Shown piece after piece: positions 1-59,198 of a DNA stretch of 64,000 bases (position 1 is the stretch's first letter; each line of letters starts with the position of its first letter). The notes under the pieces are model-generated. The model did no database searches, was not told where the DNA came from, and saw nothing but the letters and a program-made list of their open reading frames with translations. The stretch is from a virus. The position numbers and the translations under genes are program-made. The stretch is taken from IMG/VR virus record IMGVR_UViG_3300032053_007880, positions 1 to 64,000 of that record. The stretch is one strand, 5' to 3'.

Positions 1-770
1 AACAGGTTCAAGCTCTTTTTAAAAAGTCTAATTGGTTTGCTTCCATGAACAGACTTGTTGTACTTGTCAACGAGTTCTGCAAAATCTGGAGAAATTGTAT
101 CAGAATGAAGCGTTGCAATTGTCGCCATGCTGGTTAAAAAGACAAAGTTCTTTCCGTCCCAGAATAGTTGTCGTGGCCCTGTCTTCTCTTTTTCCCAAGA
201 GCCGCTTCCATGAACAACATGCTTGATGAATTTTCCAAGATAGACATAGACATCTTGCTTCTTTGTTCTGTAAGAAGCACCGGGAATCAATTCCTTTGCC
301 TTCACTTTGCAAGATTGCAAATTTGTGTAATCTGTAGAATGCTTGTAGTCCACAGAACACACTGGAAGCAACACAAGTTCTGTGCCTTCCCAAGCGTAAA
401 CAAATTTACCTTCAAGACCCTTGCCACGACTGCAATCACATTCTCTAAGAATGAACAGCAAGTTTGGTACAGAAATTTCGAACTCAAACCCACGAGGGTC
501 ATAGACCCTAACGTGGGCATCTCGAAAGTTCCAATGACTCTTGTAGCCGCCAACTTTCTTATTGAGAACGAAACCTTCTGTTGGTTCATTTTTGAACTCT
601 TCAGCGGCGATATTCTTGTCACGCCAGCCTTCCCATGACTTTTCCTTCCTGAGAACACCTTTTTGGTCGTAGTAGATCACATACGCCAGTTTCTTGGTAT
701 ACGTGCCTTCTCTTGCCTGAAAGCCAACTTTGATCTTCTCTGGAATTAACAGTTGTTGTGCGTCGTTCAT
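1..770 (-). CDS. Conserved phage protein of unknown function, 3' end outside window
   Basis: An open frame reads from an ATG at 770 on the minus strand to base 1 without a stop, giving at least 256 residues, so the C-terminus lies outside the window. The start is preceded by a good ribosome site (GGAGA, 9 bases upstream). The protein begins MNDAQQLLIPEKIKVGF and contains the stretches KSWEGWRDKNIA (about residues 44-55), YDPRGFEFEISVPNLLF and FVYAWEGTELVLLPVCS. I recall similar stretches from uncharacterised proteins of large phages, but I know of no function. No membrane segment or nucleotide-binding motif is visible. It lies 44 bases downstream of another unknown minus-strand gene and is probably co-transcribed with it. 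Confidence 0.85.
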   Translation of the reverse strand, partial: MNDAQQLLIPEKIKVGFQAREGTYTKKLAYVIYYDQKGVLRKEKSWEGWRDKNIAAEEFKNEPTEGFVLNKKVGGYKSHWNFRDAHVRVYDPRGFEFEISVPNLLFILRECDCSRGKGLEGKFVYAWEGTELVLLPVCSVDYKHSTDYTNLQSCKVKAKELIPGASYRTKKQDVYVYLGKFIKHVVHGSGSWEKEKTGPRQLFWDGKNFVFLTSMATIATLHSDTISPDFAELVDKYNKSVHGSKPIRLFKKSLNL

Positions 771-814
771 GGTAAGTCTCCTACAATCATGATCGCCAAA
801 AACAACAGTTTACT

Positions 815-1561
815 TTAAGCAACTTGCGTTTGTCTAGCCAGATTCTCTGCCGCTTTGTCTCGATTGTATCCTTCAACAATCTTATCGTACTGAAGATCGT
901 CGATCAGGAAACTTTCTTGCTTAAAGTTTTCGGGAACGTACAGATTGATTTTTGGAGACTTCTCCACTCGATCAGCATTCTTCTGCCACCAAATCTCTGT
1001 ACCTTCATATCTCCAAAGAGTTTGAACTTTCTTGAACCCATTTGCTTTATTAAGCAGTGCTCTGTTCCTCTCGGTTGTCATCTTGCTGTATGGAATGAAG
1101 CTTCCATAATCTTCTGTCTCTGACTGCCAAGATTTGATGACCGATTGAACATGAGGCAAAAGTTTGTTTTTGGAAATTCTGTAAACTTCACGGTATTGAT
1201 CGGATTCATTTTTTACGCCGACATAATACTCCTCAACACTTTGTTGAAGACATCTGAAGTCTCTTCCAGAAACCGTGGCTTCATTATCAACCCCATGAAA
1301 TGGCTGACTGAAAAGCACTGGAATATCTCTTTTTGAATGTTCAACTCTCAGTTTGAAGCCGACAGGCACAAAATCTTTTCTATACGAATACTTGACCCAA
1401 TAATCAATTAACAATTTCTCGTCTTCTTCACGAGTTGCCTTTCTATAATCTTCAAAATGGCCTGTTTCTTTAAGAAACTCCACAAGTTGCTTGGTCCAAA
1501 TATCTGATTCTTTCAGACGAACATTGAAATGTTGGTCTTGAAATGCGGTTTGTTGTGGCAT
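815..1561 (-). CDS. Hypothetical protein, 248 aa
   Basis: This minus-strand gene has an AAGGA ribosome site before the ATG at 1561. The product is soluble-looking, charged and rich in aromatic residues, with no recognisable catalytic motif. It contains YYVGVKNESDQYREVYRISK near the middle, which has the feel of a structural or DNA-associated phage protein, but that is only an impression. It is followed on the same strand by the partial gene at 1-770 and is probably in one transcript with it. Function unknown. Confidence 0.8.
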   Translation of the reverse strand: MPQQTAFQDQHFNVRLKESDIWTKQLVEFLKETGHFEDYRKATREEDEKLLIDYWVKYSYRKDFVPVGFKLRVEHSKRDIPVLFSQPFHGVDNEATVSGRDFRCLQQSVEEYYVGVKNESDQYREVYRISKNKLLPHVQSVIKSWQSETEDYGSFIPYSKMTTERNRALLNKANGFKKVQTLWRYEGTEIWWQKNADRVEKSPKINLYVPENFKQESFLIDDLQYDKIVEGYNRDKAAENLARQTQVA

Positions 1562-1634
1562 GGTTATCCTTTCATGGATAGTTTAAGAGAACCACACTGT
1601 AACCAAAATTGAACTCAAGGTAAATAGATACATT

Positions 1635-2084
1635 ATGAGCTTTAAGACGTGGATCGAAGACCAAGAAATGAGCATGGGTGGAATGTCCCCAGAACTAATG
1701 ACCAACCGTGGCAGTGAAGCACCTGCATCGGACGAGGTTAAGCGTACTAACATGCAGCCACAAGTTGACGCTCAAGAGCCAAAACTAGCCAAAGATGTTG
1801 ATCGAGTCTCAGCCATAGATGCTGGAATTGAACATCTTGAAAAGGTTTTGCCACAAGAAACAGATGAAGGTAGCAAATCCAACGAATTTAAGAAACTATG
1901 GTCCCAACTCAAAGAAAAATGGGACAAAGTTAAGATGGACAATAAAGCTCCATCGCCTGAAGATACCGGCCTCGGAATGGCAACTGGAGATCAGAAATAC
2001 CTTCAATCAATGCAACAACACCCTAACATGGTTCCGACCAACGGCTCCCAAATGGCCGGACCCGGAACATTCGGACAAGGATAG
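1635..2084 (+). CDS. Small protein with capsid-targeting-like N-terminus, 149 aa
   Basis: The product starts MSFKTWIEDQEMSMGG, matching the M-x-F-K-x-W-[LIM]-x-x-x-E peptide shared by many otherwise unrelated proteins in this window. The rest is low in hydrophobic residues, Gln/Pro/Met-rich and probably largely disordered, with one predicted helical stretch around residues 55-95. The N-terminus resembles the T4 internal-protein capsid-targeting sequence (MKTYQEFIAEA), which is cut by the prohead protease after an L/I-x-E type site. By analogy it may be a packaged or scaffold-associated protein; this is inference. The next gene starts only a few bases after its stop. Confidence 0.75.
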   Translation: MSFKTWIEDQEMSMGGMSPELMTNRGSEAPASDEVKRTNMQPQVDAQEPKLAKDVDRVSAIDAGIEHLEKVLPQETDEGSKSNEFKKLWSQLKEKWDKVKMDNKAPSPEDTGLGMATGDQKYLQSMQQHPNMVPTNGSQMAGPGTFGQG

Positions 2085-2180
2085 AAATGATGGCTTCAAT
2101 GCAAGGTTAATGAAGAATTTGGAACTCCAGATCAACAAGGCCCAGACCTTTATAGTGCCCGTGAAAGCATTAAAAACGCA

Positions 2181-2489
2181 ATGGCCAACATGCGTTCCGA
2201 TCCAACTAAAGTTCTTGCTGATGGATTGCAATGGGGCCTAAAGAAAGCTGCCGGGCATCCACAAGCCACACAAATCATCAGAAGAATGCAAGATATGGCA
2301 ATGCAGTTCTTTCAGGAAATCAGAGATAAAAGTCTAGGCATCTATGACAATCGTCAAGGAAATGTCATTCGGCCAAGAATGCCAAGTCAGGGAGAGCGTG
2401 GATTTGAGGAATATCAACAAATCTATCTCGCCTACTACGATAAGCTACATCGCATTTGGCAAGGTTTAGATCAACTTGCCCATCAATAA
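2181..2489 (+). CDS. Hypothetical protein, probably frame-disrupted near its start
   Basis: The clear reading frame from ATG 2181 gives a 102-aa helical protein (WGLKKAAGHPQATQIIRRMQD). The same frame is open back to 2091, but has no start codon there. A better ribosome site (AAGGA at 2077-2081) sits before ATG 2087, whose frame runs MMASMQG and then stops at TAA 2108. Removing one T at about 2107-2108 would join MMASMQG to NEEFGTPDQQGPDLYSARES and the rest, giving a continuous protein of about 133 aa. The gene is therefore either frameshifted (real or sequencing error) or it uses the weak internal start. Function unknown; it ends just before a bidirectional terminator. Confidence 0.65.
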   Translation: MANMRSDPTKVLADGLQWGLKKAAGHPQATQIIRRMQDMAMQFFQEIRDKSLGIYDNRQGNVIRPRMPSQGERGFEEYQQIYLAYYDKLHRIWQGLDQLAHQ

Positions 2490-2491
2490 AC

Positions 2492-2524
2492 AAAAAAGCC
2501 TCGCTGAATCAGCGAGGCTTTTTC
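2492..2524. terminator. Bidirectional Rho-independent terminator
   Basis: A perfect 10-bp stem AGCCTCGCTG / CAGCGAGGCT with a 3-base loop is flanked by A-run and T-run, so it can terminate transcription from both sides. It separates the plus-strand genes ending at 2489 from the minus-strand spoVR operon ending at 2526. Confidence 0.92.
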
Positions 2525-2525
2525 T

Positions 2526-2840
2526 TTATGCAGCAAGTGCATCAAACTTAAGTTGTTGTTTATAAGCATCCTTAAGTCTGGCAACAAAAAACCCTTCTGG
2601 GTCCAACTCTCGACGCTTCTCAACAAGTTCCCAGACACTTTGACGACCCACAATTTGTGGTTCCCATTCTCCAAATGTCATTTCCCATTTATGATTAAGA
2701 ATGGCCTCTTTCCAATGACGCCTTTTCCAAGCATCATGTCCTTCACATTTTTGCCATCCAGCAGATTCCAAATGTTGGATCATCTTCTCTCGAAGAGCTT
2801 TGGCTTCTTGTTCTTTTCTGACTTTCTTGGTGACTATCAT
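2526..2840 (-). CDS. Hypothetical protein downstream of spoVR, 104 aa
   Basis: This is the last gene of the minus-strand prkA-yeaH-spoVR run; its ATG overlaps the spoVR stop by 4 bases and the ribosome site AAGGAG lies inside the end of spoVR, indicating translational coupling. The protein is basic and Trp-rich (KRRHWKEAI, HKWEMTFGEWEP) with helical character at both ends. I do not recognise the family. Its coupling to spoVR suggests it works with it, but the sequence does not show how. Confidence 0.8.
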   Translation of the reverse strand: MIVTKKVRKEQEAKALREKMIQHLESAGWQKCEGHDAWKRRHWKEAILNHKWEMTFGEWEPQIVGRQSVWELVEKRRELDPEGFFVARLKDAYKQQLKFDALAA

Positions 2841-4441
2841 CGCATGAACTCCTTTTCGTAATTTTCTCTGGTTACTGTGTGAACATCCTTGTCTGGATTC
2901 ATCCCATCACAAATGTAGACGAACTCTTGATCTTCCATTGTTTGAGTTGACAGAACAATTGTGTTCTGCCACAACTTGAACAAGGAAATGATTGTTTCTC
3001 TGGCATATTTCTCTTCCAGAGGACGACCATCCCACATGTGCTTGATGAAGAGCCAACCTTTGCCCAAGTGATTGGGGTCCGTCAATCTGATATCCGGCAA
3101 ACCACCATTCAAATATCTCTTCAACAACTTACTCTTGATTGTCTTGAAGTCTCGATTGACAATCTTGTACTCTCCATTGGGGAACCGACGCCATTCAAAG
3201 AACTGTTTCTTCTCACATAGTTCTGGAGTGAAGAATTCTTGGATCGCAGTATAGTCGTTGTAATATTTGCGAACTTCAAAAACCTTTTCTTTTCCAAGAC
3301 CAAGATTCTTGTTCCACATTTCTTTCTCTTTGATGTCACGGCATTCGTTGTATTCTCTGCCGAAGCACCCCTTATTCCAGCGTTCTTCAATATCAAGCAG
3401 AATCTCAAATCCCATCTTGTATGGATTCATGCTGTACTTGCCGCCAAGCACTCTCCATTTGTGATCGGCGTAATGCCAAATTCCGTCACCTTCTTTTTTC
3501 TGTCCTAAATTACAGAGACCTTCTCGGCACATTAAATGGAAGTCCACATAACTTGCCCAGCCTTCATTAAGCATCTTGGTTTGACGCTGCGGCTGGAAGT
3601 ACATCGACTCTTCATACAACATGCTGATGATGTCTTGCTGCCAAGCCTTCAGAGGAGCATTATCTTTGAGGAACCCCATGATGTCTTTTTCTGGCCTCTC
3701 AAATACACCCAAGAATTCAGCAGCTTCTTTCTTTTCGATCTCATCGTGTTGATCATCAATGAATTCCTTGGTATTGACCCACTCGTCCATGTAATTGTGA
3801 GTAGATCTTATGCGTTCTGGAAAATGATAATTTCTCTCATCTTTTACAACAGCATTCTTGATGGTTTTCTTTTTCCAAGCGTGCTGTGGATCAATCAAAG
3901 TTTCAATTCTCAACACATGGTCAATGAATTCTGTAACAATTTCATAGCCCCATCGAGACATGTATTTTCTGATTCTGGTCCCATGGTTGGCCAACTTGTT
4001 CATCATATTTTCATCAGTTGGCTCGAAGAAAATGTTGTTCTTAAAGAAGTCATTGTGACCAATGGCATGTGCAATAACATCCACATTGTCAACAAGAGTA
4101 TTTGAATCCATGCAATAGATGTAACATGGATTTGTGTTAATCACCATTTCTGAAATACGATACTGATTGTATTCGTATCCTCTGGCTAATTCCTCATATT
4201 CCATACCCCATTTCCAATGCGGGTATCTTACAGGAAATCCGCCATAGCTGGCGAGTTCTGCCATTTCGTCATATCTGACGAATTCAACAATGATTGGGTA
4301 GTATTCTAGCCCCATCCCTTTACAAGCCGCCTCAATCTGCGGCATGACTTCCAGAACTTCTTTATGAATCTTTAGTCCGGGAATAGTATTATCACCGCAC
4401 AAAATTGGTGATCCACTCATCATTTTAGAAACTTTTGCCAT
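2837..4441 (-). CDS. spoVR: SpoVR family protein
   Basis: The 534-residue product matches the SpoVR/YcgB family in length and in key stretches: GLEYYPIIVEF near residues 44-54, NTNPCYIYC at 102-110 and HAIGHNDFFKNN at 125-136, followed by long helical regions with RYEI/EFIDH. In Bacillus SpoVR is needed for normal spore cortex formation; in E. coli YcgB is a stationary-phase protein of unknown biochemistry, usually encoded with PrkA (YeaG) and the DUF444 protein YeaH. Both partners are encoded upstream in this same transcript, with two glycan genes in between. A strong ribosome site AAGGAG precedes ATG 4441. Family assignment is firm; the role in a phage is unknown. Confidence 0.95.
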   Translation of the reverse strand: MAKVSKMMSGSPILCGDNTIPGLKIHKEVLEVMPQIEAACKGMGLEYYPIIVEFVRYDEMAELASYGGFPVRYPHWKWGMEYEELARGYEYNQYRISEMVINTNPCYIYCMDSNTLVDNVDVIAHAIGHNDFFKNNIFFEPTDENMMNKLANHGTRIRKYMSRWGYEIVTEFIDHVLRIETLIDPQHAWKKKTIKNAVVKDERNYHFPERIRSTHNYMDEWVNTKEFIDDQHDEIEKKEAAEFLGVFERPEKDIMGFLKDNAPLKAWQQDIISMLYEESMYFQPQRQTKMLNEGWASYVDFHLMCREGLCNLGQKKEGDGIWHYADHKWRVLGGKYSMNPYKMGFEILLDIEERWNKGCFGREYNECRDIKEKEMWNKNLGLGKEKVFEVRKYYNDYTAIQEFFTPELCEKKQFFEWRRFPNGEYKIVNRDFKTIKSKLLKRYLNGGLPDIRLTDPNHLGKGWLFIKHMWDGRPLEEKYARETIISLFKLWQNTIVLSTQTMEDQEFVYICDGMNPDKDVHTVTRENYEKEFMR

Positions 4442-4467
4442 AACAATCTCCTTCAGAACTCATTCTA

Positions 4468-5490
4468 CTATATCTGAACCAAAGACTCAAGAGCTTCTTT
4501 AACGCTCTTTACAGCTTTCGCCCAATCAGCCTGCTGTCTTGCCAATTTTACAGAAGGATACCAAACGGTCTTTTCTTCTGTTCCCCAACGAGGGTCACAA
4601 TCATCTGGAATCAATCCAAATGTTGGAACGCCAACAGCCCCAGCTAAATGCAACACTACTGTATCAACAGACACAATATGTTGAAGGCAATTTATGGCAG
4701 CAGTTGTGTCATACAAATCACGCAATTCTAACTTCTTCATGAATGCTGGACATTCATTTGGATCTAACGAATATAGATCATAACTATCAGACACTAACTG
4801 TTCAATGATGTTCGTCGGAACGCTTTTTGTCAGTGACAGAATATTGTCTGGATTAGATCTCCACGCCACTCCAATTGCTGGTTTTTCAAAAACTCTTTCT
4901 ATCACATCACGACATGTAGAAAAGGTTGAATGTGCTGTCAGCTTTGGTTGAGACGGAACGACTTTCTCCATAATCAAAGAAAAGTGAGCCGGATAATAAA
5001 CAGGTAGATCAACCTTGTACAATATCGCAGGCAAACTAAAGATGTTCGTATGGTAATCACATTGCTTGTGAAACCTAACAAATTCATCTATGTAATCAAC
5101 TTCTTCGATCAATCTTTTGAATTGTTCAAAGTAGGCATAGCAATTCAAAATGATTTTACAGGACCATCTCTCTTTCATGATGTAGAGATACCTCAGCATG
5201 TTGACGGTATCTCCCATGCCTTGATCGCAAAAAACCTCGATGGTTGCACCATCGAGGTTTTCGCCGCCCCATAAATTTCCGAACTCGGCAAGTTCCGGTT
5301 GACTACAGAGCCCATTGTTTGCCGCAATCAACTGGAAAAATTTAGGGACTAAGGGGTTCTCGGGCTCTATCCTTTGTACCACACCAAGCATCTCAACAGC
5401 TTTATTTGGTCTCCCTGTGTTAATGTAGTTGTAAGCCATAGCCAATGATTGGCTAATCAGACTCGACTGCAAGTTCTGGCTGTTTGTCAT
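4468..5490 (-). CDS. TPR-containing glycosyltransferase, heptosyltransferase (GT9)-like
   Basis: The N-terminus (about residues 12-50) reads as a TPR-type helical pair. Around residue 90 it has DQGMGDTVNMLRY, like the Q-G-x-G-D-x-hydrophobic motif of the TPR/GT9-like fusion proteins, and the C-terminal part has VSVDTVVLHLAGAVGVPTFG followed by DPRWG and VWYPSVKLARQ, the nucleotide-sugar end of that family. Such proteins transfer sugars, often in LPS or glycoprotein synthesis. It overlaps the FkbM methyltransferase gene by 38 bases and sits inside the prkA-spoVR operon. A later start at 5439 is possible but has no ribosome site. Substrate unknown. Confidence 0.78.
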   Translation of the reverse strand: MTNSQNLQSSLISQSLAMAYNYINTGRPNKAVEMLGVVQRIEPENPLVPKFFQLIAANNGLCSQPELAEFGNLWGGENLDGATIEVFCDQGMGDTVNMLRYLYIMKERWSCKIILNCYAYFEQFKRLIEEVDYIDEFVRFHKQCDYHTNIFSLPAILYKVDLPVYYPAHFSLIMEKVVPSQPKLTAHSTFSTCRDVIERVFEKPAIGVAWRSNPDNILSLTKSVPTNIIEQLVSDSYDLYSLDPNECPAFMKKLELRDLYDTTAAINCLQHIVSVDTVVLHLAGAVGVPTFGLIPDDCDPRWGTEEKTVWYPSVKLARQQADWAKAVKSVKEALESLVQI

Positions 5491-6337
5491 CTCTTATGTT
5501 TCTCATTTCAATGTGTCTTGGGTTATCGCTATTGTCCAAATCCACAATATAAGGGTCTTGCAAATTCTCTGGTTTACAAGATTTGTGCCAACAAACCAAA
5601 TCTCCAGACACGAGTGGAAGTTTGGTCTCTGGATGCCTCATGATATCGTCTGTCATGCCATTGTGATTGCTTGGATTGAACAAGGGAGTTTCATGTAAAG
5701 CCCACTCATAATCCACAGATTTCAAGAAATTCAAAATGTGCCTCCAATTTTGTGTAAATTCTACATACAGAATTGGCTTAGCCCTCTTGATTGTCTTCCT
5801 CATTCCATTCAATACAACAGGCTCCATTCCTTCCACGTCAATCTTTACAAGTTTTGGATTGGATATTCCAAGTTCATCAATCGCAATTGCAGTAACCGGG
5901 TTGCTGCAAACATTTCCTTGTGCATCCTTAGAATTCAACAACCCAACCAACTTGAGGCCGCCAAAGTTTCCAACCCTTGAAAAATCAAAATGTGGATAGT
6001 ACAAAACAGATCCTGTCTTGTCAGAAGCGGCTCTGTTGAAACATTGAACATGTGTCAAATTATTCAAGGCCACGTTTCCGCACAATGTATAAAACAACAT
6101 TGATTGTGCCTCTAAAGCCAACACATATCCTTCTTTCCCGACCTTCTTAGCCAATGGAATAGTAATGATTCCAATGTTAGCCCCGATGTCAATTACAGAG
6201 TCTCCCGGAGAAACAAGTTTTTCAAGGAAGTCGATCTCAAGTTGATGAGCTTCTCCGTAATAATCCAACGCACGACCGATGTAAGCATCATTCTGTGGGA
6301 ATATCATCGGACCATTTTTTGTCAGTTTGTATTTCAT
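5453..6337 (-). CDS. FkbM family SAM-dependent methyltransferase (copy 1)
   Basis: This 294-aa protein has the class I methyltransferase motif I DIGANIG at residues 50-56, preceded by the acidic helix region and followed by LALEAQ (motif II) and CGNVALNNL, typical of the FkbM family. The later KLVKIDVEGME motif is also an FkbM signature. These enzymes O-methylate sugars or small molecules. Its ATG overlaps the stop of the yeaH-like gene by 4 bases. A paralogue lies at 24897-25721, sharing GPM-x-P-x-ND near the N-terminus and the same core, so duplication within the phage lineage is likely. Confidence 0.88.
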   Translation of the reverse strand: MKYKLTKNGPMIFPQNDAYIGRALDYYGEAHQLEIDFLEKLVSPGDSVIDIGANIGIITIPLAKKVGKEGYVLALEAQSMLFYTLCGNVALNNLTHVQCFNRAASDKTGSVLYYPHFDFSRVGNFGGLKLVGLLNSKDAQGNVCSNPVTAIAIDELGISNPKLVKIDVEGMEPVVLNGMRKTIKRAKPILYVEFTQNWRHILNFLKSVDYEWALHETPLFNPSNHNGMTDDIMRHPETKLPLVSGDLVCWHKSCKPENLQDPYIVDLDNSDNPRHIEMRNIRDDKQPELAVESD

Positions 6338-7566
6338 GCACTCTCCATAATAGCAATTTGTTGTTCTTTACCTAACAAAGATTTGATCGCTTCAATGATT
6401 TGTCTATTGCGATCTTCCTCTGTCATATCTGGAGCATAACCCCAGTTGCCAAAACCAAAATTTTCGCCCTTTGCTTCCTCTGGACCGACATACGCCGTTC
6501 TCACATAATCAGAAAGCTTGCCTTCTTTGATTGATTTATCAAAGAAATGCTTAACGCTATCCTCATATCTCCAAGAACAAACTTGAGATATACCAATCAT
6601 GTTTACTTTAGTTGGACCAAGTTCTTCTTGAATGATTTCAAGCATTCTCTCGTTGTCACCGCCCCAATTGTCTCCATCAGAGAAATAGAACAAGTACACG
6701 TTATAAGCTTGCGGAGGATATCTGTTCTCTAATTGTTCTGCAACTGCCTTGAAAGCTGAAGAACATTGTGTTCCGCCACCAAAACGATAGGTGTAGAATT
6801 CTTCTTCATTAACTTCCCAAGCTCTTGTATCGTGTACAAAATAACAACGATCAACTTTCTTGTAGAATCTTCTGATCCAGCAATCAATCCACCATGCCAT
6901 GTCAGAAACGATATCGCATCTGTAATCATCCATTGATCCAGAGCAATCTCTGGCAAAGAAAATCACAGCATTCGATGTCGGAATTTTAATCTCTTGATAT
7001 TGCCTGTAACGAAGATCTGAATTGATCGGCGTAATCAATCTCGGCAATGGTTTTGCACCGGGAATAACTTTAGGGTCTAAAGCCCCAGTAATAGCCATTC
7101 TCTTAATGGCTTCCTTCATCGTGCGGCGAGTATGTCGCAGTGACTCAGGTCCATTCTTTGAAATGTCATTGTACTTAATTTTGACTTCTTCAAAAGTCTC
7201 ATTCGGCTTTGGACGCATTCTGGGAAGCTGAAGTTCTTCCTGCATAAACCGCAGAACATCTTCCATATCAACAGAGATGTTGATACCTTCTCCGGGCTGA
7301 TCTCCGGGCTTGCTGCCTTTTCCGGGCTGAGGATCTTTTCCAATGACCTCGCCATCTTTACCCGGCCCTCTACCAACACCCTTACCAGTATCACCAAACA
7401 AAAAGTGCGGGATATCAATTTGCGGAATGCTAACCGTCATCTTGCCGCCCTTGGGGCGTTGACGAATGATCGCACCTGATTTGATCAGACGCTTGAGTTC
7501 TTTTCTTGTACGACCAGAAATTACGTCTCTGAATTTCTTGTGATCTTCTTGAATTCTGTTTGGCAT
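6334..7566 (-). CDS. yeaH: YeaH/YhbH family (DUF444) protein with VWA-like domain
   Basis: The product (about 410 aa from the start chosen here) begins MPNRIQEDHKKFRDV, has the Gly-rich acidic linker (about residues 65-95) and a C-terminal von Willebrand A-like domain with the metal-site motif DCSGS at about 207-211, then GGGTQCSSAF and FYFSDGDN. This is the DUF444 family, normally encoded with prkA. ATG 7566 is preferred over an upstream start because AAGGAG sits 6-7 bases before it and family members start at this point. VWA proteins often pair with AAA+ ATPases, here PrkA, immediately upstream. It ends by overlapping the FkbM gene. Confidence 0.93.
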   Translation of the reverse strand: MPNRIQEDHKKFRDVISGRTRKELKRLIKSGAIIRQRPKGGKMTVSIPQIDIPHFLFGDTGKGVGRGPGKDGEVIGKDPQPGKGSKPGDQPGEGINISVDMEDVLRFMQEELQLPRMRPKPNETFEEVKIKYNDISKNGPESLRHTRRTMKEAIKRMAITGALDPKVIPGAKPLPRLITPINSDLRYRQYQEIKIPTSNAVIFFARDCSGSMDDYRCDIVSDMAWWIDCWIRRFYKKVDRCYFVHDTRAWEVNEEEFYTYRFGGGTQCSSAFKAVAEQLENRYPPQAYNVYLFYFSDGDNWGGDNERMLEIIQEELGPTKVNMIGISQVCSWRYEDSVKHFFDKSIKEGKLSDYVRTAYVGPEEAKGENFGFGNWGYAPDMTEEDRNRQIIEAIKSLLGKEQQIAIMESA

Positions 7567-7654
7567 TTTATGTCTCCTTGTGCCGTTTGATTCTGCTAGA
7601 TATGGGCGGCAACAGACTTTGCTGTCATCTGTCACCGCCCATTTGAACTAGCTG

Positions 7655-9742
7655 TTACTTAGAGACATCGCCACGAGCGAAGATACTCGAAACGTAGTCC
7701 AGAACATCTGTGGCTGATTGCAGATTGTAGCCATACTGCTTAACCAATCTGGTCTTGATGGCGTCGATCTTTTCTTGCAGATCTGGGTCAAGTTCAGCAG
7801 CTTCTTTGGTCAACGTGGACAGCTTGATGGTGTCCTTGATGTCCTCGAAGACCTTGGCCTCAATAGCCCTCTTGAGTTCTTCGTTGCTGTCCCACTTGAA
7901 TTCCTTGCCACGTCGGCTCTGAGTTCCCATGAACGCAGCCAATGATCGACGGAAGTCATCACAACCCTGTTCTGGGATGTCAGCCTTCTCTTCGATGCTT
8001 CTCATCAACCTTTCATCTGGTTCCATTGGTTGATTTGTGATTGGGTGAATCATTCGTTCTTTGTTCACATAAGCAATCACATTGTCAAGGTACTTGTTAC
8101 AGAGACGTTCCATCGCCTTTTCATCGGCAACAAGAGCACGCTGAACTTCATTCTTGAGAATTTCGTCCAGTTCCTTGATGGCCAACTCGGCACAGAACTC
8201 ATATCTCTTCTTGTCTTCGACCTTGGTGATCAGAGAAGATACACCAAGACTTTCCTTGAGTTCGCTCATCACATGAAACACGTTGACGTATTTCTTGTGT
8301 CGAGCCAGACAGTTTGAAATTCCACTCTGAGTGAAACGAGCAGAGACACCACTCGTCAGACCTTCATCAACATATCTGTCACGAAGTTCCTTCACAGAGT
8401 CTTCTGTCCATCCGGGCAGACTTCTGCCATCGTACAACTTGGCCTTGTCTCGAAGATCAAGCTTTCCATCTGGATCATCTTGAAGTCTGGTCAAGACCGC
8501 AAAGAGTGCGGCAATTTCCAGAGTGTGTGGCATGATGTGTTGTTTGATCTTGCCGGGACCGTAATCTTGTTCCAAAACCTTGATTTCGTCAGTCCAACGT
8601 GTCAAGTAAGGAACATCCACCTTCACAGTTCTGTCTCGAAGAGCTTCCATGAACTGATTGTTCTTGAGCTTCTCGTATTCAGGATTGTTGGTGTGAGCAA
8701 TGATCAATTCATCCACCACGATCTGTGAGAACTTCTTTGGTTTGATCTGATGTTCTTGTGCAACACCAAGCAAATCGTAGAGGAACTCATTTGCCAGCTT
8801 CAACATTTCAATGAATTCACAAACGCCACGGTTGGCGATTTCAAATTCTCCATCGAAGTTGAACGCTCTAGGATCAGAGTCAGAACCGTAGTTACCGATA
8901 TGACGGAAGTTGATATCTCCTGTCAATTCAGTGCTGTCTTGGTTCTTCTCGTCCTTCGGCTGAAAGGTGCCAATGCCACATCGGTCAATTTCAGAATGGA
9001 CACGACGAATTACAACGATGTGTTCCGAAACAACCTTAAGCCAATCGCCCTTGTATCTATCCAAAAGCAGCTTCATGAACAGTTTGCAGCGAGGATTTAG
9101 ATCTCCATCACAAATCAACCTGTAAATGTTCTCACGATCTTCGTCAGTTGACATCTCATGATGAGCAGAATTGATTTCTTTGAGGAACTCATCACGCATG
9201 TTCTTAGGCATGAGCTTCAGAGGATTTTCATTCAACGGAGAAATGTCCATTGCCTCTGTAAAAACAGCAAGACCATTGTCATCAGCTTCGGTTGGCAGAT
9301 TCACCCACTTAAAGGTGTACCATGCACCGACATCGGAACGAGAGTAGTGCTCAAGACCTCTCTTGAGTCGGCGACAAATGGTGGACTTAGATGATCCTAC
9401 CGGGCCGTGCAGCAACAGAACTCTGCGTTCTGTTCCATAGTTTCCAGCAGCACCGTGAATGAAGTCCACGAGATCCTGAAGAGTTTCTTCGAGACCGAAG
9501 ATAGGAATCTCGTTATCGTTGAAGAAGTGATATCGAGTGTAAGTCTTTCGATATCTTTCGAAGGTGCTGGTCCCCTTCGACATGATCATGTCATATACAT
9601 ACTGAAATGAATTTCTTGCCAACTTTGGGTTCGACCGAACCTTTTCGAGATACTGCTCGAAAGACATTTCCTCGTTTAACGTGAGGAACTCTTTACGATC
9701 ATACAGTTCTGCGAATTTCTTTAAGACTGTGTCATTCTCCAT
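7655..9742 (-). CDS. prkA: PrkA family serine kinase / AAA+ ATPase
   Basis: At 695 aa this is a full-length PrkA (YeaG) homologue. The AAA region has Walker A GPVGSSKST at residues 113-121, and the C-terminal PrkA domain is present through NQPMEPDERLMRSIEEK and the end. PrkA proteins are reported as Ser/Thr kinases or, in Bacillus, ATP-dependent proteases, and act in starvation, sporulation and persistence. AAGGGG precedes ATG 9742, and a possible promoter (TTGTAT, 17 bases, TATACT) lies upstream on this strand around 9790-9820. It is the first gene of the run prkA - DUF444 - FkbM - GT - spoVR. Identity is firm; the phage role is inference. Confidence 0.95.
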   Translation of the reverse strand: MENDTVLKKFAELYDRKEFLTLNEEMSFEQYLEKVRSNPKLARNSFQYVYDMIMSKGTSTFERYRKTYTRYHFFNDNEIPIFGLEETLQDLVDFIHGAAGNYGTERRVLLLHGPVGSSKSTICRRLKRGLEHYSRSDVGAWYTFKWVNLPTEADDNGLAVFTEAMDISPLNENPLKLMPKNMRDEFLKEINSAHHEMSTDEDRENIYRLICDGDLNPRCKLFMKLLLDRYKGDWLKVVSEHIVVIRRVHSEIDRCGIGTFQPKDEKNQDSTELTGDINFRHIGNYGSDSDPRAFNFDGEFEIANRGVCEFIEMLKLANEFLYDLLGVAQEHQIKPKKFSQIVVDELIIAHTNNPEYEKLKNNQFMEALRDRTVKVDVPYLTRWTDEIKVLEQDYGPGKIKQHIMPHTLEIAALFAVLTRLQDDPDGKLDLRDKAKLYDGRSLPGWTEDSVKELRDRYVDEGLTSGVSARFTQSGISNCLARHKKYVNVFHVMSELKESLGVSSLITKVEDKKRYEFCAELAIKELDEILKNEVQRALVADEKAMERLCNKYLDNVIAYVNKERMIHPITNQPMEPDERLMRSIEEKADIPEQGCDDFRRSLAAFMGTQSRRGKEFKWDSNEELKRAIEAKVFEDIKDTIKLSTLTKEAAELDPDLQEKIDAIKTRLVKQYGYNLQSATDVLDYVSSIFARGDVSK

Positions 9743-10518: not shown

Positions 10519-11319
10519 ATGTCTGTAATAAAAAAATTCCACAAGAAACCAAGTCATGTCAGGAAGAACAACTTCTGTTCTAAACTTTGTTTGGAGCAAT
10601 GGAGAGGTTCTAAAATTGAAACAAATTGTGATTATTGTAATGCAACAATCACAAAGGTCACAAGTGAGTTGCGTGATCACAATTTCTGCAATCAAACATG
10701 TTTTGGCAACTGGCATTCAGAGTCAATGCGTGGAGAAAATCATCCTCGGTTTTATCTTAAAGAAATACCATGCGATCACTGCGGTAACTCATTCAAACCA
10801 TCGTTAGGCACTCAAAGATTCTGCTCAGTCAAATGTGCCAACACAGCCAGAGAGACCAGAATATCTCTTGTGTGCGATGCTTGCAAAACAGAATATTCTG
10901 TTCAAGTGGGCGAGGCAAAATGGGCGGAAGATCGTGGTTATGTCCACAAATTCTGCTCTAAGAAGTGCCAGTATGGGTTTCAGAAAAAAGAGGGACATCC
11001 GAGATGGAAGAAAGACAGGTCTGATATAAAGAACCAAAATAAATCTCTACGTGAAACACCTGAAATGAAATTGTGGCGAGAAGAAGTGTTTTCCAGAGAC
11101 AATTGGACTTGTCAGCAATGCGGAGACAGATCGCACGCAGGGCATCCTGTGGTTCTCAATGCTCACCATGTCAAACGGATTGTTGATCATCCAGAACTAT
11201 CATTGATTCCAAGCAATGGGATCACACTATGCGAACCATGCCACAAAAAGACGTTCGGCAAAGAACAATTGTTCGAGGAATCATTTGTCAGAATCATCAC
11301 TGCCAAAATTCTTCCTTAA
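10519..11319 (+). CDS. HNH homing endonuclease with zinc-ribbon repeats, N-terminus frameshifted
   Basis: The C-terminal part has an HNH nuclease: RDNWTCQQCGDRS, NAHHVKRI and LCEPCHKKT. Before it are several CxxC...FCSxxC zinc modules. The in-frame ATG at 10519 starts in the middle of the first module. A better start is ATG 10500, which reads MPTIQCDVCNKK and then hits a run of seven A (10529-10535); one A fewer would continue directly into FHKKPSHVRKNNFCSKLC, completing a CxxC...FCxxxC module. So the gene appears broken by a one-base insertion in a homopolymer. Free-standing phage homing endonuclease, probably selfish. Confidence 0.82.
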   Translation: MSVIKKFHKKPSHVRKNNFCSKLCLEQWRGSKIETNCDYCNATITKVTSELRDHNFCNQTCFGNWHSESMRGENHPRFYLKEIPCDHCGNSFKPSLGTQRFCSVKCANTARETRISLVCDACKTEYSVQVGEAKWAEDRGYVHKFCSKKCQYGFQKKEGHPRWKKDRSDIKNQNKSLRETPEMKLWREEVFSRDNWTCQQCGDRSHAGHPVVLNAHHVKRIVDHPELSLIPSNGITLCEPCHKKTFGKEQLFEESFVRIITAKILP

Positions 11320-11802: not shown

Positions 11803-13164
11803 TTAAGAAACGAAATTGGTAGTGCTTAGACCTTGAATGATCGGAGCACGAAATACTTCTGGGACAATATCTGCCCCAACAATTTCACTTTCTTTGTAAT
11901 CTGATCCTTTCACAAGTACATCTGGCTTAATGGTCTGGATCAGATTCAATGGAGTGTCTTCATCAAAAGACACAACGAAATCTACCATCTTCAAAGCACT
12001 CATCACCGCCATCCTTTGGTCAAGCGGTTTGATGGGTCGTTTTTCACCTTTAAGTCTTTTGACGCTGGCATCTGAATTGATTGCCACCACCAATTTATCA
12101 CCTTTGCTTTTGGCAAATTCTAAAGTTCTCAAATGTCCTTCATGAAGCAAGTCGAAGCAGCCATTTGTGAGCACCAATTTGAAATCACGATTGATCAAAT
12201 CAATTGAATCAACGATTCCATCCAGAGATAGCTCGGCAGGAGTTATCGGTCTGTTTCTCTTGTTTTTGACATAATTGGCTCCAGCACTCCAAGCAATCTC
12301 AGCAGCTTCAGGTACAGAAAATCCATGTCCAATAGCCATGGCAAAAAATGCAGCAAAACAATCTCCAGCACCAACAACACTCTCCACGACAACTGAACGC
12401 TCTGGCTTAAAATTGAAGAAGTCTCCATTCCAGATACCAGATACTCGATCTCCTCCAAATGTAATTACTACAGCTTCACATTCTAGTTCGTTTTGCAAAT
12501 GCTTAGCTTGTTCCTTCCATTGAGTTCTGCCAGTAAGATCTGTCGCTTCTTTGTTGTTAGGCTTGAAAATCGTACAACCTTTCCATTTTGAAAGTGGACC
12601 TCTCTTGGGGTCTACAATAGTTGTAACATCTCTATAGAAATCGAGCACTCGATATTCTTCGCTTGAGAAAAAGCCTTTGTTGTAGTCTGACAATATTGCC
12701 ACATCTGGCCTAAATGACTTCTGAATGATTGTTGTGATTTGGGTTGTCGCAAAATCAACAACATGTTCATCCAAGCCACATAATGGGGTCTCTATGTCGT
12801 GACGCACCACTTGCACACCATTATCTAAAAACCTTCGTTTAATAGGCAGTGTGCAGCATCCAGAAGCCAAAGCATGACCCCATCGAATCCCATGATCTGT
12901 AAAAACACTTTTGCCCAAATCATCGCACCAGCAAACCAACAATGAGTCAGCATTAAAATGTTTGAATTGATAGGCAACATTTGCCGCTCCACCGGGTTTC
13001 CTAATGGGCCAATCGTTAGCAGATAACATGATTGGCATGGGAAACTCTGGACTAATACGATTTACTTTCACATCATAGTATTCATCAATCATTGCGTCCC
13101 CAACACAATGAACCTTAATTCTTCTCTCTCTGTTCTTCTGCAAAAACTCATTCAATAAATTCAT
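11803..13164 (-). CDS. hldE: HldE-like bifunctional heptose kinase / nucleotidyltransferase
   Basis: Two domains are visible. The N-terminal PfkB/ribokinase domain has GGAANVA (about residues 58-64) and the catalytic GAGD at 265-268. The C-terminal cytidylyltransferase has NGCFDLLHEGH at 334-344 and ends VLVKGSDY...IIQGLSTTNFVS. HldE makes D-glycero-beta-D-manno-heptose 1-phosphate and its ADP derivative for LPS core. The start at 13164 is preferred because GGGAGGG lies just upstream; an ATG 12 bases further upstream is also possible. The chain ends right after S-T-T-N, slightly shorter than cellular enzymes. It suggests a Gram-negative host. Confidence 0.9.
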   Translation of the reverse strand: MNLLNEFLQKNRERRIKVHCVGDAMIDEYYDVKVNRISPEFPMPIMLSANDWPIRKPGGAANVAYQFKHFNADSLLVCWCDDLGKSVFTDHGIRWGHALASGCCTLPIKRRFLDNGVQVVRHDIETPLCGLDEHVVDFATTQITTIIQKSFRPDVAILSDYNKGFFSSEEYRVLDFYRDVTTIVDPKRGPLSKWKGCTIFKPNNKEATDLTGRTQWKEQAKHLQNELECEAVVITFGGDRVSGIWNGDFFNFKPERSVVVESVVGAGDCFAAFFAMAIGHGFSVPEAAEIAWSAGANYVKNKRNRPITPAELSLDGIVDSIDLINRDFKLVLTNGCFDLLHEGHLRTLEFAKSKGDKLVVAINSDASVKRLKGEKRPIKPLDQRMAVMSALKMVDFVVSFDEDTPLNLIQTIKPDVLVKGSDYKESEIVGADIVPEVFRAPIIQGLSTTNFVS

Positions 13165-13204
13165 TTGCCCTCCCATAATGTCTTATGAGAGTACAAAAAC
13201 AAAA

Positions 13205-17613: not shown

Positions 17614-17689
17614 TGTATGGTATGTATCATGACGATCATGAAATCTCATATTGAAAAATTTACACAATTGATGTCTACATACGGATGTG

Positions 17690-18565
17690 ATGCTAAACAA
17701 AAAACAACGTGAAATAATCATCGGATCATTGCTCGGAGACGGAAGTCTTACGAAGGTTTATGGAAATGGCAACAGTGCATTTAGAGACGCACACTGTCCA
17801 GCACAACTGAATTACTTAAAATGGAAGCATCTGACACTTGAACCATTTTCATTGCCATTAAAAGTCGAAAAAAGAGCGACGATTAAAGGGTTCAACAAAT
17901 CAACAAATAGCCCAATTATGGACAAAAACACAAAATCTGATGTATGGGTAATGAGAACTCTTTCATCACCAGAGATTAAAGAGTTAGAGAAACAGTGGTA
18001 CTTAAGAGATGAAGCCGGAAATTACAAATTCTACAAAAACAGAAGAATTAAGATAGTACCAGAAGATATTGTGCTTACTCCATTGTCGCTAACAGTTTGG
18101 TTTTTGGACGATGGGTCAAATCTTTACAATGGTAACAGTAAATACAAAAGCAGAAATGCTGTATTCCACACACTTGGATTCACGTTTGATGAATGTGAGA
18201 TATTGTCATATAAAATAAAGCAACTCGGACTACCTGCATGTGGAGTGAGACAAAATAAAGGAAAACCAGAAATTGTCATATACTCAAATTCTTATAAAGA
18301 CTTCATGGACATGGTGAATAAACATAATGAAATAGAGGATATGAGGTACAAGACAAAATCTGAAAATTACACAGAGCCTAATAAAAAACACAGTGCAAAA
18401 CTAAGTAAAAAAAATGTTCTTGAGGTGATATCTCTACATAATGCTGGCAGGAAACAAAAAGATATCAGCATTATGTTTGATGTCAGTACAGCGACAATTT
18501 GCAATATCATAAACGGAACAAACTGGTCTGATATTACTGGAATTATAAAATCAAATGAAATTTAA
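17690..18565 (+). CDS. LAGLIDADG homing endonuclease with C-terminal HTH
   Basis: Two LAGLIDADG helices are visible: IIIGSLLGDGSL near residues 9-20 and LTVWFLDDGSN near 134-144, so this is a monomeric double-motif enzyme. The C-terminal 50 residues (KKNVLEVISLHNAGRKQKDIS...CNIINGTNW) form an intron-endonuclease-type helix-turn-helix for DNA binding. It sits alone between a minus-strand gene and the tagged gene at 18555, overlapping the latter by 11 bases; no intron or intein is apparent, so it is free-standing. GTG 17687 is an alternative start. Confidence 0.9.
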   Translation: MLNKKQREIIIGSLLGDGSLTKVYGNGNSAFRDAHCPAQLNYLKWKHLTLEPFSLPLKVEKRATIKGFNKSTNSPIMDKNTKSDVWVMRTLSSPEIKELEKQWYLRDEAGNYKFYKNRRIKIVPEDIVLTPLSLTVWFLDDGSNLYNGNSKYKSRNAVFHTLGFTFDECEILSYKIKQLGLPACGVRQNKGKPEIVIYSNSYKDFMDMVNKHNEIEDMRYKTKSENYTEPNKKHSAKLSKKNVLEVISLHNAGRKQKDISIMFDVSTATICNIINGTNWSDITGIIKSNEI

Positions 18566-23916: not shown

Positions 23917-24900
23917 TCAATTGCCGTGTTCTGTAATCATTCTACGGATTGTTCCGCTCTCAGATCTCATCGCAATTGAATTTGTCACAGGGCCATTTGT
24001 CGTAAATCTTACGCCTTTTAGAAGCTGGCCATCTGTAATTCCGGTAGCAGCAAACATGCACGGGCCGTTAACAAGATCCTCTATTTTCAAAATTCTCTCT
24101 TCCAGAGCGTAACAAGAATCTCCGCTGATTGTCATTTCACGACATTGAAGCATACCGCCCATACACTTCATGGCAGCGGCTGAAATTACTGCTTCGGGGG
24201 CACCACCAATGCTCCAATACATGTCGATGCCGCTATCTGGCACACAGGTCGCAATACAAGCAGTCACATCGCAGTCTGAGATGAATTTGATCCTACAGCC
24301 GATCTTTCTGAGTTCTTCCACCAGCGGCTTTGTACGAGGTCTATCCAGAACGCAAACAGTGACGTGTTGTGGAGATTTCCCAAGAGCAGCAGCAACTATT
24401 GCAATATTTGTAGCGGGATCTTGATCAAGGCTAATTGGCTGTATGTATTGAGCGACTTGCGGCCCAACAGCAAGCTTGTTCATGTAGAAAGTTTCAGTCT
24501 GATACATCGCTCCGACATTAGCCAATGCGATCACAGACATCGCTTCATACCCGCCTTTGGCAGTTGGCGTTGTACCCTCGATGGGATCAATAGCAATGGA
24601 ATAATCTGGAACTCCAGAACAATCTTCTCTGTAAGTCGAAGGATCATTGTAATCTGTTGCTTGAAAATCAACAGATCTGTTCAAGCCCACAATCTCACCT
24701 TGATACAATCCATGTGATTCATCTTTTTTTCCTTCTCCGATGGCTATTTGAGCACAAAAATCAATCTTGTTCAGACGATCTCTGATCGCTTCTGTTGCTG
24801 CCAGATCAGCCGCTTCTTTGTCGCCTCGACCAACCCATTCTGCCGCATGAATCGCTCCAGCTTCTGTAGCTCTAACCAAATCCATGTGATAATTTTTCAT
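23917..24900 (-). CDS. glpX: Class II fructose-1,6-bisphosphatase (GlpX)
   Basis: The 327-aa product has the GlpX signatures: WVGRGDKEAAD near residues 22-32, IGEGKKDE, the Li-sensitive phosphatase motif DPIEGTTPTAKGG, and IGGAPEAVISAAAMKCMGG. It hydrolyses fructose-1,6-bisphosphate (some homologues also sedoheptulose-1,7-bisphosphate). AAGGAA precedes the ATG, which overlaps the stop of the FkbM gene. As a phage auxiliary metabolic gene it could redirect carbon to the pentose phosphate pathway or to sugar-nucleotide synthesis; the adjacent glycan genes favour either. Active-site residues look intact. Confidence 0.93.
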   Translation of the reverse strand: MKNYHMDLVRATEAGAIHAAEWVGRGDKEAADLAATEAIRDRLNKIDFCAQIAIGEGKKDESHGLYQGEIVGLNRSVDFQATDYNDPSTYREDCSGVPDYSIAIDPIEGTTPTAKGGYEAMSVIALANVGAMYQTETFYMNKLAVGPQVAQYIQPISLDQDPATNIAIVAAALGKSPQHVTVCVLDRPRTKPLVEELRKIGCRIKFISDCDVTACIATCVPDSGIDMYWSIGGAPEAVISAAAMKCMGGMLQCREMTISGDSCYALEERILKIEDLVNGPCMFAATGITDGQLLKGVRFTTNGPVTNSIAMRSESGTIRRMITEHGN

Positions 24901-25721
24901 AAAATTTCCTTAACTGCTTTGAAGTATATCGCATCCATCTCAGACTGAAAGTCTTTATGATAACAGATGATATCACTAGACATCATTGGAACATCTGGGT
25001 TATGTGCTTCTCTGAGTTCATCAACCGGATTGTTGAAAAAATTATCTGGATTGTAAAACTTAACTCTGATTGATCTATGAACATAGTTCATCTTCAAAAT
25101 GGCCTCTCCTAATTTTGGCAGAGTCCATGGCATTGATTCTATGAACATAACTGGTTTGAACTCCTCGATAATCTTTTTCGCTCCAACCAATGCCTTAAGT
25201 TCATCGCCTTCAATATCTAACTTGATGAAATCACACGTATTAAGATTCAAATCATCCAAAGCTATTGTTTCAACTTCGAAATCAGAATCGAAACGAGGCT
25301 CTTCTGTTAGAAAAACTCCGCCATAGTGCTGCATCTCTTCATCGTAAAATGGAACTCCAATGTCATTTTTCAGCAATGGCGATGGACAGAAAAGTTTCTT
25401 GCCAGACACATCTCCTACGGCTTTACAATGTGCTCTAACATTGTACAGATTGTTTGCGGCAATGTTACCGCACATTGTATAATACAAAAACTCTTGTGGC
25501 TCAAAAGCAATTACAGTGTCTGCTTTTTGAGCCAACGGGATTGTCATGTCACCAATATTCGCACCAGCATCAATAACCACATCCCCTGATTTGATAAATC
25601 GTAACATCAAAGCAATTTGCTTCTCGTAACATTCTCCATACAAATCAAAAGATCTGCCAGTCCACTTATCGTTAGCCGGATAGAGCATTGGTCCATATCG
25701 GCAGTTCTTTATTTTTATCAT
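24897..25721 (-). CDS. FkbM family SAM-dependent methyltransferase (copy 2)
   Basis: Paralogue of the enzyme at 5453. It starts MIKIKNCRYGPMLYPANDKW and has motif I DAGANIGDMTIPLA near residues 51-64, FEPQEFLYYTMCGNIAANNL and FIKLDIEGDELKAL. It lies directly upstream of glpX with a 4-base overlap. Both copies share the N-terminal GPM-x-P-x-ND element, which is not part of the generic fold and suggests they act on similar substrates. Probably sugar O-methylation. Confidence 0.87.
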   Translation of the reverse strand: MIKIKNCRYGPMLYPANDKWTGRSFDLYGECYEKQIALMLRFIKSGDVVIDAGANIGDMTIPLAQKADTVIAFEPQEFLYYTMCGNIAANNLYNVRAHCKAVGDVSGKKLFCPSPLLKNDIGVPFYDEEMQHYGGVFLTEEPRFDSDFEVETIALDDLNLNTCDFIKLDIEGDELKALVGAKKIIEEFKPVMFIESMPWTLPKLGEAILKMNYVHRSIRVKFYNPDNFFNNPVDELREAHNPDVPMMSSDIICYHKDFQSEMDAIYFKAVKEIL

Positions 25722-34013: not shown

Positions 34014-34514
34014 TCACAACAAATCTACAGAACCGGGGTGTAACAAATGAAAATCAAATCCTTCATAACTGGCCGGACGAGATTTCTTTCCCGGAGGCAA
34101 ACGTCTTTCATTCGATGTTTTGGCAGCCCAACAATAGACTTTTCTGTTGTTTCTAAAGAAATCTACATAAGACAAATACTTTTGTCCCATGAATAATCGT
34201 CCGACCTTGCAGACAATATTAAATGGAATGAATGGAATTTGAGGCGATTGAATTTGAATTGTTTCTAAAATATGACGTTCATAATCTGCCCTACTGAAAC
34301 AAACTGATATTTCATAACCATCAACTTGAATAACTCTATTTTTAAGACACAAAACTTTTTGTTCTTCTTCAAAAGAAACAACTGGGAAAGAATAAGGGAT
34401 CAATTGATCAGCCATCGCCTTCATTGAATCAATAGAATTTTGTATCTCTGTGTTCATTTTGGGTATATACCCATCAGACACTCCACTTGTCTCCATACAA
34501 ACTATCTTTGTCAT
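34014..34514 (-). CDS. Hypothetical protein paired with amidoligase, 166 aa
   Basis: Overlaps the amidoligase gene by 41 bases, so the two are coupled. Starts MTKIVCMETSGVSDGYIPKM; later parts include VICKVGRLF-like and YLSYVDFFRNNRKVYCWAAK. I do not recognise a family; in other genomes amidoligases are often coupled to a substrate-supplying or cyclotransferase-like partner, but nothing in this sequence identifies one. Confidence 0.7.
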   Translation of the reverse strand: MTKIVCMETSGVSDGYIPKMNTEIQNSIDSMKAMADQLIPYSFPVVSFEEEQKVLCLKNRVIQVDGYEISVCFSRADYERHILETIQIQSPQIPFIPFNIVCKVGRLFMGQKYLSYVDFFRNNRKVYCWAAKTSNERRLPPGKKSRPASYEGFDFHLLHPGSVDLL

Positions 34515-59134: not shown

Positions 59135-59198
59135 TTTGAATATCAAAACTACTAACTCTTATACACAAGTAAGAGCGTTTTTTGCAAAGGGCACAGAT

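Follow-up and report, generated by a model that had tools for sequence, protein, structure and literature searches.

The genes prkA, yeaH (yhbH) and spoVR (ycgB) are widespread in bacteria and important in starvation survival and sporulation, and the biochemical action of their products is not settled. In Escherichia coli, yeaG and yeaH mutants are alike in how they recover after nitrogen starvation, and complementation is lost when either the AAA+ or the kinase domain of YeaG is mutated, with the in-vitro kinase activity of this protein being cited from earlier work (PMC4664914). On the other hand, purified Bacillus anthracis PrkA, which is needed for sporulation, had no detectable kinase or protease activity (PMC13001217), and kinase activity of PrkA is disputed in the literature. 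Here, we describe a complete set of the three genes in a phage, found in a 64,000-base window (the whole stretch of DNA analyzed, positions 1 to 64,000) of the 67,739-base IMG/VR virus record IMGVR_UViG_3300032053_007880. On the minus strand of this window, from 9742 to 2526, lies an operon of prkA, yeaH, fkbM, gt, spoVR and a small open reading frame (ORF), with reading frames uninterrupted. The phage trio is real, old, selected and thinly described, and represents a known module in variant form, not a system of a new kind. An earlier interpretation of this locus, made from the letters alone (the sequence-only reading), had proposed that the set might act by phosphorylation, which is doubtful, as no kinase activity was detected for the B. 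anthracis PrkA (PMC13001217), although the E. coli kinase-domain data speak in its favor (PMC4664914).

Among the closest known relatives are bacterial prkA-yeaH(yhbH)-spoVR(ycgB) operons of the Thermomicrobium/Chloroflexota/Myxococcota/Bdellovibrionota type, which hold the same families in the same order on one strand, and which share with the phage set the FQPKDEKNQD, Walker A, metal ion-dependent adhesion site (MIDAS) and HxxxH/NEGWA motifs. Unlike these operons, the phage set forms clades of its own, has a change of W299-H300 to x-D in SpoVR as well as a VLGGKYS signature, and lies among different flanking genes. In the Thermus phages phiYS40, TMA, phiLo, MN1 and Lalka, homologs of YeaH, SpoVR and PrkA are clustered on one strand, but with a PrkA identity of ~30%, the order yeaH-spoVR-prkA, shorter proteins and a position outside the window clade in all three trees. 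The cultured Ralstonia jumbo phage RsoM2USA (344 kb) encodes SpoVR (ORF28) and PrkA (ORF30), which share a strand and leave space for a single gene between them, though the nearest named relatives of these are proteobacterial and the paper assigns the set no role (PMC8504454). Other huge phages (LR745206 of 635 kb, and IMG/VR contigs of up to 342 kb; loci L209-L368) carry YeaG-type sets in the same prkA-yeaH-spoVR order, which was found in 132 of 164 loci in two overlapping PrkA scans that count contigs up to twice; these sets differ in a PrkA only ~25% identical to that of the window and in a SpoVR that retains H300. As a separate matter, the record of Enterobacter phage LAU1 (MN688132; locus L009) has yeaG and yeaH at its start (positions 1-3308), probably a piece of host DNA.

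Phage-borne trios are already known record by record, and the novelty implied by the sequence-only reading was partly misplaced, as annotated sets exist in Thermus phages and probably in RsoM2USA too. Nevertheless, we found no paper in the open literature that treats the phage-borne trio as a theme; SpoVR and PrkA are not mentioned in the huge-phage paper PMC7162821, and our PubMed Central search gave nothing usable on phiYS40 expression or virion content. What is new here are inteins at two sites in SpoVR, a suggestive likeness of SpoVR to zinc metallopeptidases, and a lineage-wide H-to-D change next to the putative site.

With regard to family membership, the window PrkA matched the Pfam models AAA_PrkA (PF08298; 1.4e-77, positions 1-353 of 358) and the PrkA C-terminal domain (PF06798; 9.8e-66, 2-255 of 255), and its score of 200 bits against the NCBIfam YeaG model, where the equivalog cut-off is 576, marks it as a divergent member of the PrkA family. 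The solved PrkA structure 9xip was matched at 651 bits, and the 30 chains across three entries of this homologous structure are consistent with an oligomer. YeaH matched DUF444 (PF04285; 1.9e-64), as well as PRK05325 (1e-93) and YhbH (3e-67) in NCBIfam, both under the equivalog cut-off, and a sequence search for a solved relative gave chance-level matches only. SpoVR matched PF04293 (2e-102, 6-405 of 407), with the C-terminal PF24755 slightly over its cut-off and PRK11767 under the equivalog cut-off; no solved relative was found by sequence search. The D-x-S-x-S MIDAS of YeaH is present, and its motifs DCSGS/GGGT/DGD, along with the intact Walker A of PrkA (GPVGSSKST) and the SpoVR signature HAIGHNDFFKNN, are conserved among relatives. 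Together, the ORFs, Pfam matches and motifs bear out the earlier description of a full-length trio in the cellular order with signature motifs intact.

A scan of IMG/VR with the window PrkA gave 132 relatives, 80 of which were retained (56–93% identity), and in nearly all of these 80 phage contigs the three genes share a strand and run in the order prkA-yeaH-spoVR; an HldE-like gene usually precedes them. Further contigs of 459, 436 and 341 kb came from a SpoVR scan, and the 595-kb huge-phage record LR756511 contains the trio without the glycan genes, its PrkA being 61% identical to that of the window. As an independent bait against search bias, we used a TnsA-like/head-closure-like nuclease conserved in these phages. 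Among 16 previously unseen contigs, PrkA was present in 8 (in one case only the beginning of it, at the edge of the contig); another 6 of the 16 stop less than 8 kb from the marker on the trio's side, as judged from contig ranges, so that PrkA is carried by 8 of the 10 contigs of sufficient reach. Because this check revealed eight contigs with PrkA and two long ones without it, the trio is common in the phage lineage, not universal. The contig itself is viral, with PHROGs matches to UvsX, DnaB helicase, single-stranded DNA-binding protein, a branch-migration helicase and DNA polymerase. Moreover, the neighborhood recurs in scores of separate assemblies and in the 595-kb phage record, which rules out the host chromosome or chimeric assembly that the sequence-only reading had named as its possible undoing.

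For each protein, the phage sequences form one clade, with support in the Shimodaira–Hasegawa-like approximate likelihood ratio test of 98 for PrkA (58 rows), 100 for YeaH (52) and 100 for SpoVR (53), in trees of a 'quick' type with no bootstrap that included the nearest bacteria and the other phage sets; this is the outcome by which the earlier interpretation had wished to recognize stable maintenance in phages. The lineage proteins are ~36% (YeaH), ~39% (SpoVR) and ~52% (PrkA) identical to their nearest bacterial counterparts. The nearest bacterial PrkA proteins (50–54%) are mostly found within the same operon type and come from Chloroflexota, Myxococcota, Bdellovibrionota, Planctomycetota, Calditrichota and others, though a bacterial sample of the 80 closest to the query is insufficient to name a donor. 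Between the three gene trees, distances correlate at 0.85–0.91 (the maximum of 999 permutations being 0.22), with 22–25 of 37 splits shared, while the HldE tree tracks the trio less closely (0.62–0.74). Judged from these trees, a huge-phage ancestor would have acquired the trio in a single old event, with vertical inheritance since. The ratio of nonsynonymous to synonymous substitution rates (dN/dS) between the window and L011, the relative closest to it, is 0.053 for prkA, 0.029 for yeaH and 0.033 for spoVR (part after the intein), these ratios being rough, as dS is ~1 or higher in these pairs. The trio is under strong purifying selection and co-inherited in the phage lineage. In fact, the low dN/dS (0.03-0.05) and the conserved motifs rule out a decaying relic, as the sequence-only reading had also held.

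The SpoVR model obtained with AlphaFold2 (75 sequences; predicted local distance difference test (pLDDT) score of 85) had zinc metallopeptidases (M1, M32 and M9) as all 13 of its best structural matches, with Z-scores of 6.8-8.5. These were, at the top, M1 aminopeptidases and leukotriene A4 hydrolase (Z 7.2–8.5), followed by an M32 carboxypeptidase and clostridial collagenase. Invariant residues of SpoVR include H125, H129 and E293, and the HAxGH and LNEGWASY segments resemble the M1 motifs HExxH and LNE(G/A)FA(S/T)Y; likewise, the two best local alignments of the SpoVR and M1 profiles paired HAxGH with HELAH, and LNEGWASY with LNEAFATW. Rather than the HExxH that defines the gluzincins, SpoVR has HAxGH in phages and HVxGH or HVxAH in bacteria. 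Taken together, the model and motifs suggest a zincin-like metal site. Close to this putative site, residue 300 is aspartate in 39 of 39 intein-free phage proteins of the lineage and histidine in 36 of 36 nearest bacteria. Here, the window SpoVR passes the SpoVR domain test and fails the W-H pattern after NEGWASY, a residue pattern that comes from the present comparison and is not a published family criterion. Elsewhere, position 300 is histidine in the YeaG-type phages and aspartate in phiYS40, so that by these alignments the H300-to-D change is specific to the phage lineage of the window and phiYS40.

Many SpoVR proteins of the lineage are 860–1375 residues long, owing to sequence inserted behind residue 102 (EMVIN|T), residue 296 (NEGWA|S) or both, in the numbering of the window SpoVR, which is itself intein-free. 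Pfam identified intein-splicing and LAGLIDADG domains in all three phage examples tested, and at least six phage contigs have insertions at both sites. Six bacterial relatives are interrupted at the residue-296 site as well, with intein-splicing domains in 3 of 3 tested. The intein-bearing loci are L011, L027, L034, L040, L046, L050, L074, L078, L083, L088 and others, plus the bacterial L091, L109 and L165. Since inteins persist where their imprecise removal costs the host gene, those in SpoVR would fit an important protein, and the residue-296 site falls in what is putatively the active center. We found no papers in the open literature that combine SpoVR and inteins.

How might the trio work? 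As general background, in MoxR systems such as CbbQ-CbbO, NorQ-NorD and RavA-ViaA, an AAA+ ring and a von Willebrand factor A (vWA)/MIDAS adaptor act on a metal-dependent client. The likeness of the trio to these is one of logic alone, as PrkA is no MoxR protein. By this analogy, PrkA would be an ATP-driven AAA+ ring, YeaH would couple it to SpoVR through its vWA/MIDAS domain, and the pair would load, open or activate SpoVR, itself a putative metal-dependent, metallopeptidase-like enzyme or a non-hydrolytic derivative of one. The outcome would be that, while a very large phage goes through its slow infection, the cell is moved to a stress-tolerant, long-lived state, or particular host proteins are processed, these being the most likely outputs of the trio. 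To the whole of this, an ATP-driven PrkA–YeaH machine that acts on a metal-dependent SpoVR and sets the state of the host in a long infection, we give an even chance. That the set is complete and under selection suggests dependence of these phages on the trio during infection. Moreover, its conservation in at least two large groups of huge phages means that it is kept for the phages' own use, and therefore limits its role to one that is of use within a single infected cell. A bolder and rather doubtful version is that SpoVR is an unrecognized zincin-class metalloenzyme activated by PrkA-YeaH, whose metal site huge phages have retuned (H300 to D) and which they need, hence the inteins.

Several points weigh against these proposals. 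The structural match of the SpoVR model is only moderate, as Z-scores of ~8 may arise by chance for mainly helical models; Foldseek on this model returned nothing below E 0.001, and the comparison of the whole SpoVR and M1 profiles was not significant (probability 3%). Hydrolysis by SpoVR is not assured, because the glutamate that serves catalysis in HExxH has no counterpart in its sequence. Lastly, PrkA is absent from two long marker-bearing contigs (G034 and G036, of 144 and 80 kb), and the trio is not indispensable for every member of the lineage. The phage trios offer compact natural variants for biochemistry, the inteins at and near the putative active site indicate where the catalytic center of SpoVR may lie, and, if the zincin reading is true, the phage sets would be the first handle on the action of the bacterial stress module.

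Among other explanations, the phage proteins might enter host PrkA-YeaH-SpoVR complexes to block or redirect them, with the D300-bearing SpoVR as a dominant-negative subunit. The clean split at residue 300 between the lineage phages (39/39) and the nearest bacteria (36/36) would suit such a decoy, as would the restriction of the change to this lineage and phiYS40, the YeaG-type phages having retained the histidine. However, the ATPase motifs of PrkA and the MIDAS of YeaH are conserved, three complete genes exceed what a decoy needs, aspartate is also able to bind metal, and mixed complexes are not obvious at identities of only ~36% (YeaH), 39% (SpoVR) and 52% (PrkA) to bacteria; we find this interpretation unlikely. 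An equally slim chance falls to a role in virion or head assembly, where the trio would be an AAA+/vWA chaperone with a processing enzyme for structural proteins. Here, the set of Thermus phage Lalka8 has portal/minor head genes on one side and terminase genes on the other, that of phiYS40 is near terminase, and in 29 loci a ClpP-like protein with head-maturation-protease matches is found 3' of spoVR, but the remaining neighbors in the lineage are thymidylate synthase, dihydrofolate reductase, HldE and DNA polymerase III alpha, and of the ten abundant virion proteins identified in RsoM2USA, none comes from its SpoVR or PrkA ORF (PMC8504454).

Alternatively, SpoVR might work on peptidoglycan or its precursors, keeping the cell intact or altering its surface, with the glycan genes serving the same purpose. 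In Bacillus subtilis, spoVR is required for the spore cortex, having been cloned as a cortex-formation gene, as a 1994 paper by Beall and Moran says in its title (cited in PMC4605624), and HldE lies close by, with a heptosyltransferase-like gene also close in one sub-lineage. Even so, conservation of the trio does not extend to the glycan genes, and SIS_2 (GmhA-type) is absent in 12 large phage records, so that no complete heptose pathway of this type is shown. Moreover, we know of no secretion signal in PrkA, YeaH or SpoVR. Such envelope remodeling seems to us improbable, to the same degree as the two preceding proposals. Far less credible still is that a bacterial operon was captured by chance and, conferring no benefit, awaits loss. 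The LAU1 yeaG-yeaH pair, at the record start beside tail genes, does resemble a recent bacterial piece, yet an old clade, dN/dS of 0.03-0.05, congruent trees, repeated inteins and conserved synteny all argue the other way, and for the lineage of the window the selection and tree results refute it.

The two glycan genes between yeaH and spoVR had been thought possible effectors of the trio, an idea rejected on their distribution: no gene intervenes in 94 of 115 phage loci, the glycosyltransferase (GT) is confined, in this gap, to the window plus about eight relatives from a single sub-lineage, and FkbM to the window plus L011. Their dN/dS in the same window–L011 pairs (0.085 for fkbM and 0.121 for gt, against 0.03-0.05) speaks against it too. 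FkbM matched Methyltransf_21 (PF05050) at 1.4e-13 and TIGR01444 at 86 bits, above the curated cut-off. The GT scored below the Pfam GT9 cut-off (E 0.0023; 17.7 bits versus 22), though its AlphaFold2 model (pLDDT 85) had GT9 enzymes as all 30 of its best Foldseek matches, with WaaF at 3.7e-8 and the WaaF/WaaC/TibC range at E 1e-8 to 1e-5, and on this model it is a predicted GT9-like heptosyltransferase-type enzyme of the GT-B fold. Its N-terminus is helical, yet no tetratricopeptide repeat (TPR) model matched at E 0.1. Hence, of the FkbM and TPR/GT9 genes announced inside the set, the positions, FkbM and (by structure) GT9 stand, and the TPR is not confirmed. More likely, both genes are late passengers tied to the glycan repertoire of the contig rather than to the trio. 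Together with HldE, they might also be the two halves of a single heptose pathway; a search of 12 records gave no GmhA-type SIS_2. A second FkbM gene, 31.9% identical to the first, is present in the window at 24897-25721, and a GlpX-type fructose-1,6-bisphosphatase directly adjoins it, the two together covering 23917-25721.

The layout of the operon and its upstream neighbor is given in the table. The operon is indeed co-oriented, as previously described, but only yeaH, spoVR and the small ORF have good ribosome sites, those of fkbM, gt9 and prkA being weak. For YeaH, the start is probably ATG 7566 rather than GTG 7635, because of an AAGGAGA ribosome site there and the fit to homolog starts. 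The small ORF was assigned no family in the Pfam/NCBIfam comparison.

Table. Coordinates of the prkA operon and its conserved upstream neighbor in the window
Feature	Position	Strand	Remarks
PrkA, AAA+ ATPase with PrkA C-terminal domain	7655..9742	-	695 aa; opens the operon; PF08298 and PF06798
YeaH/DUF444, vWA-like with MIDAS DCSGS	6334..7566	-	PF04285; ORF opens at GTG 7635
FkbM-family methyltransferase, accessory insertion	5453..6337	-	PF05050; TIGR01444; ATGA overlap with yeaH
GT9-type glycosyltransferase, predicted heptosyltransferase-like, GT-B; accessory	4468..5490	-	AlphaFold2 model and Foldseek
SpoVR, intein-free	2837..4441	-	534 aa; PF04293; putative metal-site residues H125, H129, E293; D300
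Small ORF	2526..2840	-	104 aa; overlaps the spoVR end; relative in L011
HldE-like heptose-7-phosphate kinase/heptose-1-phosphate adenylyltransferase, bifunctional	11803..13176	-	NCBIfam PRK11316 1.3e-81, full length

The HldE-like protein scores under the PRK11316 equivalog cut-off, and its gene is a conserved upstream neighbor without demonstrated membership of the trio. This ADP-heptose gene is kept upstream of prkA across the lineage, though the GmhA-type isomerase family SIS_2 was absent from the 12 large phage records searched. On the other side, 3' of spoVR in related loci (e.g. L019, 15164-17537), a ClpP-like protein is often followed by a PHP/DNA polymerase III alpha N-terminal part. 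The window also has HNH and LAGLIDADG endonuclease ORFs (10519-11319 and 17687-18565), probable homing endonucleases, one of which lies on the opposite strand, a short way upstream of the prkA operon. Other ORFs of the window include an amidoligase (34474-35520), a polysaccharide pyruvyl transferase (49901-50917), a DDAH-like ORF followed by a DegT aminotransferase and an acetyltransferase (58259-60901), and a UvdE endonuclease (61190-62086).

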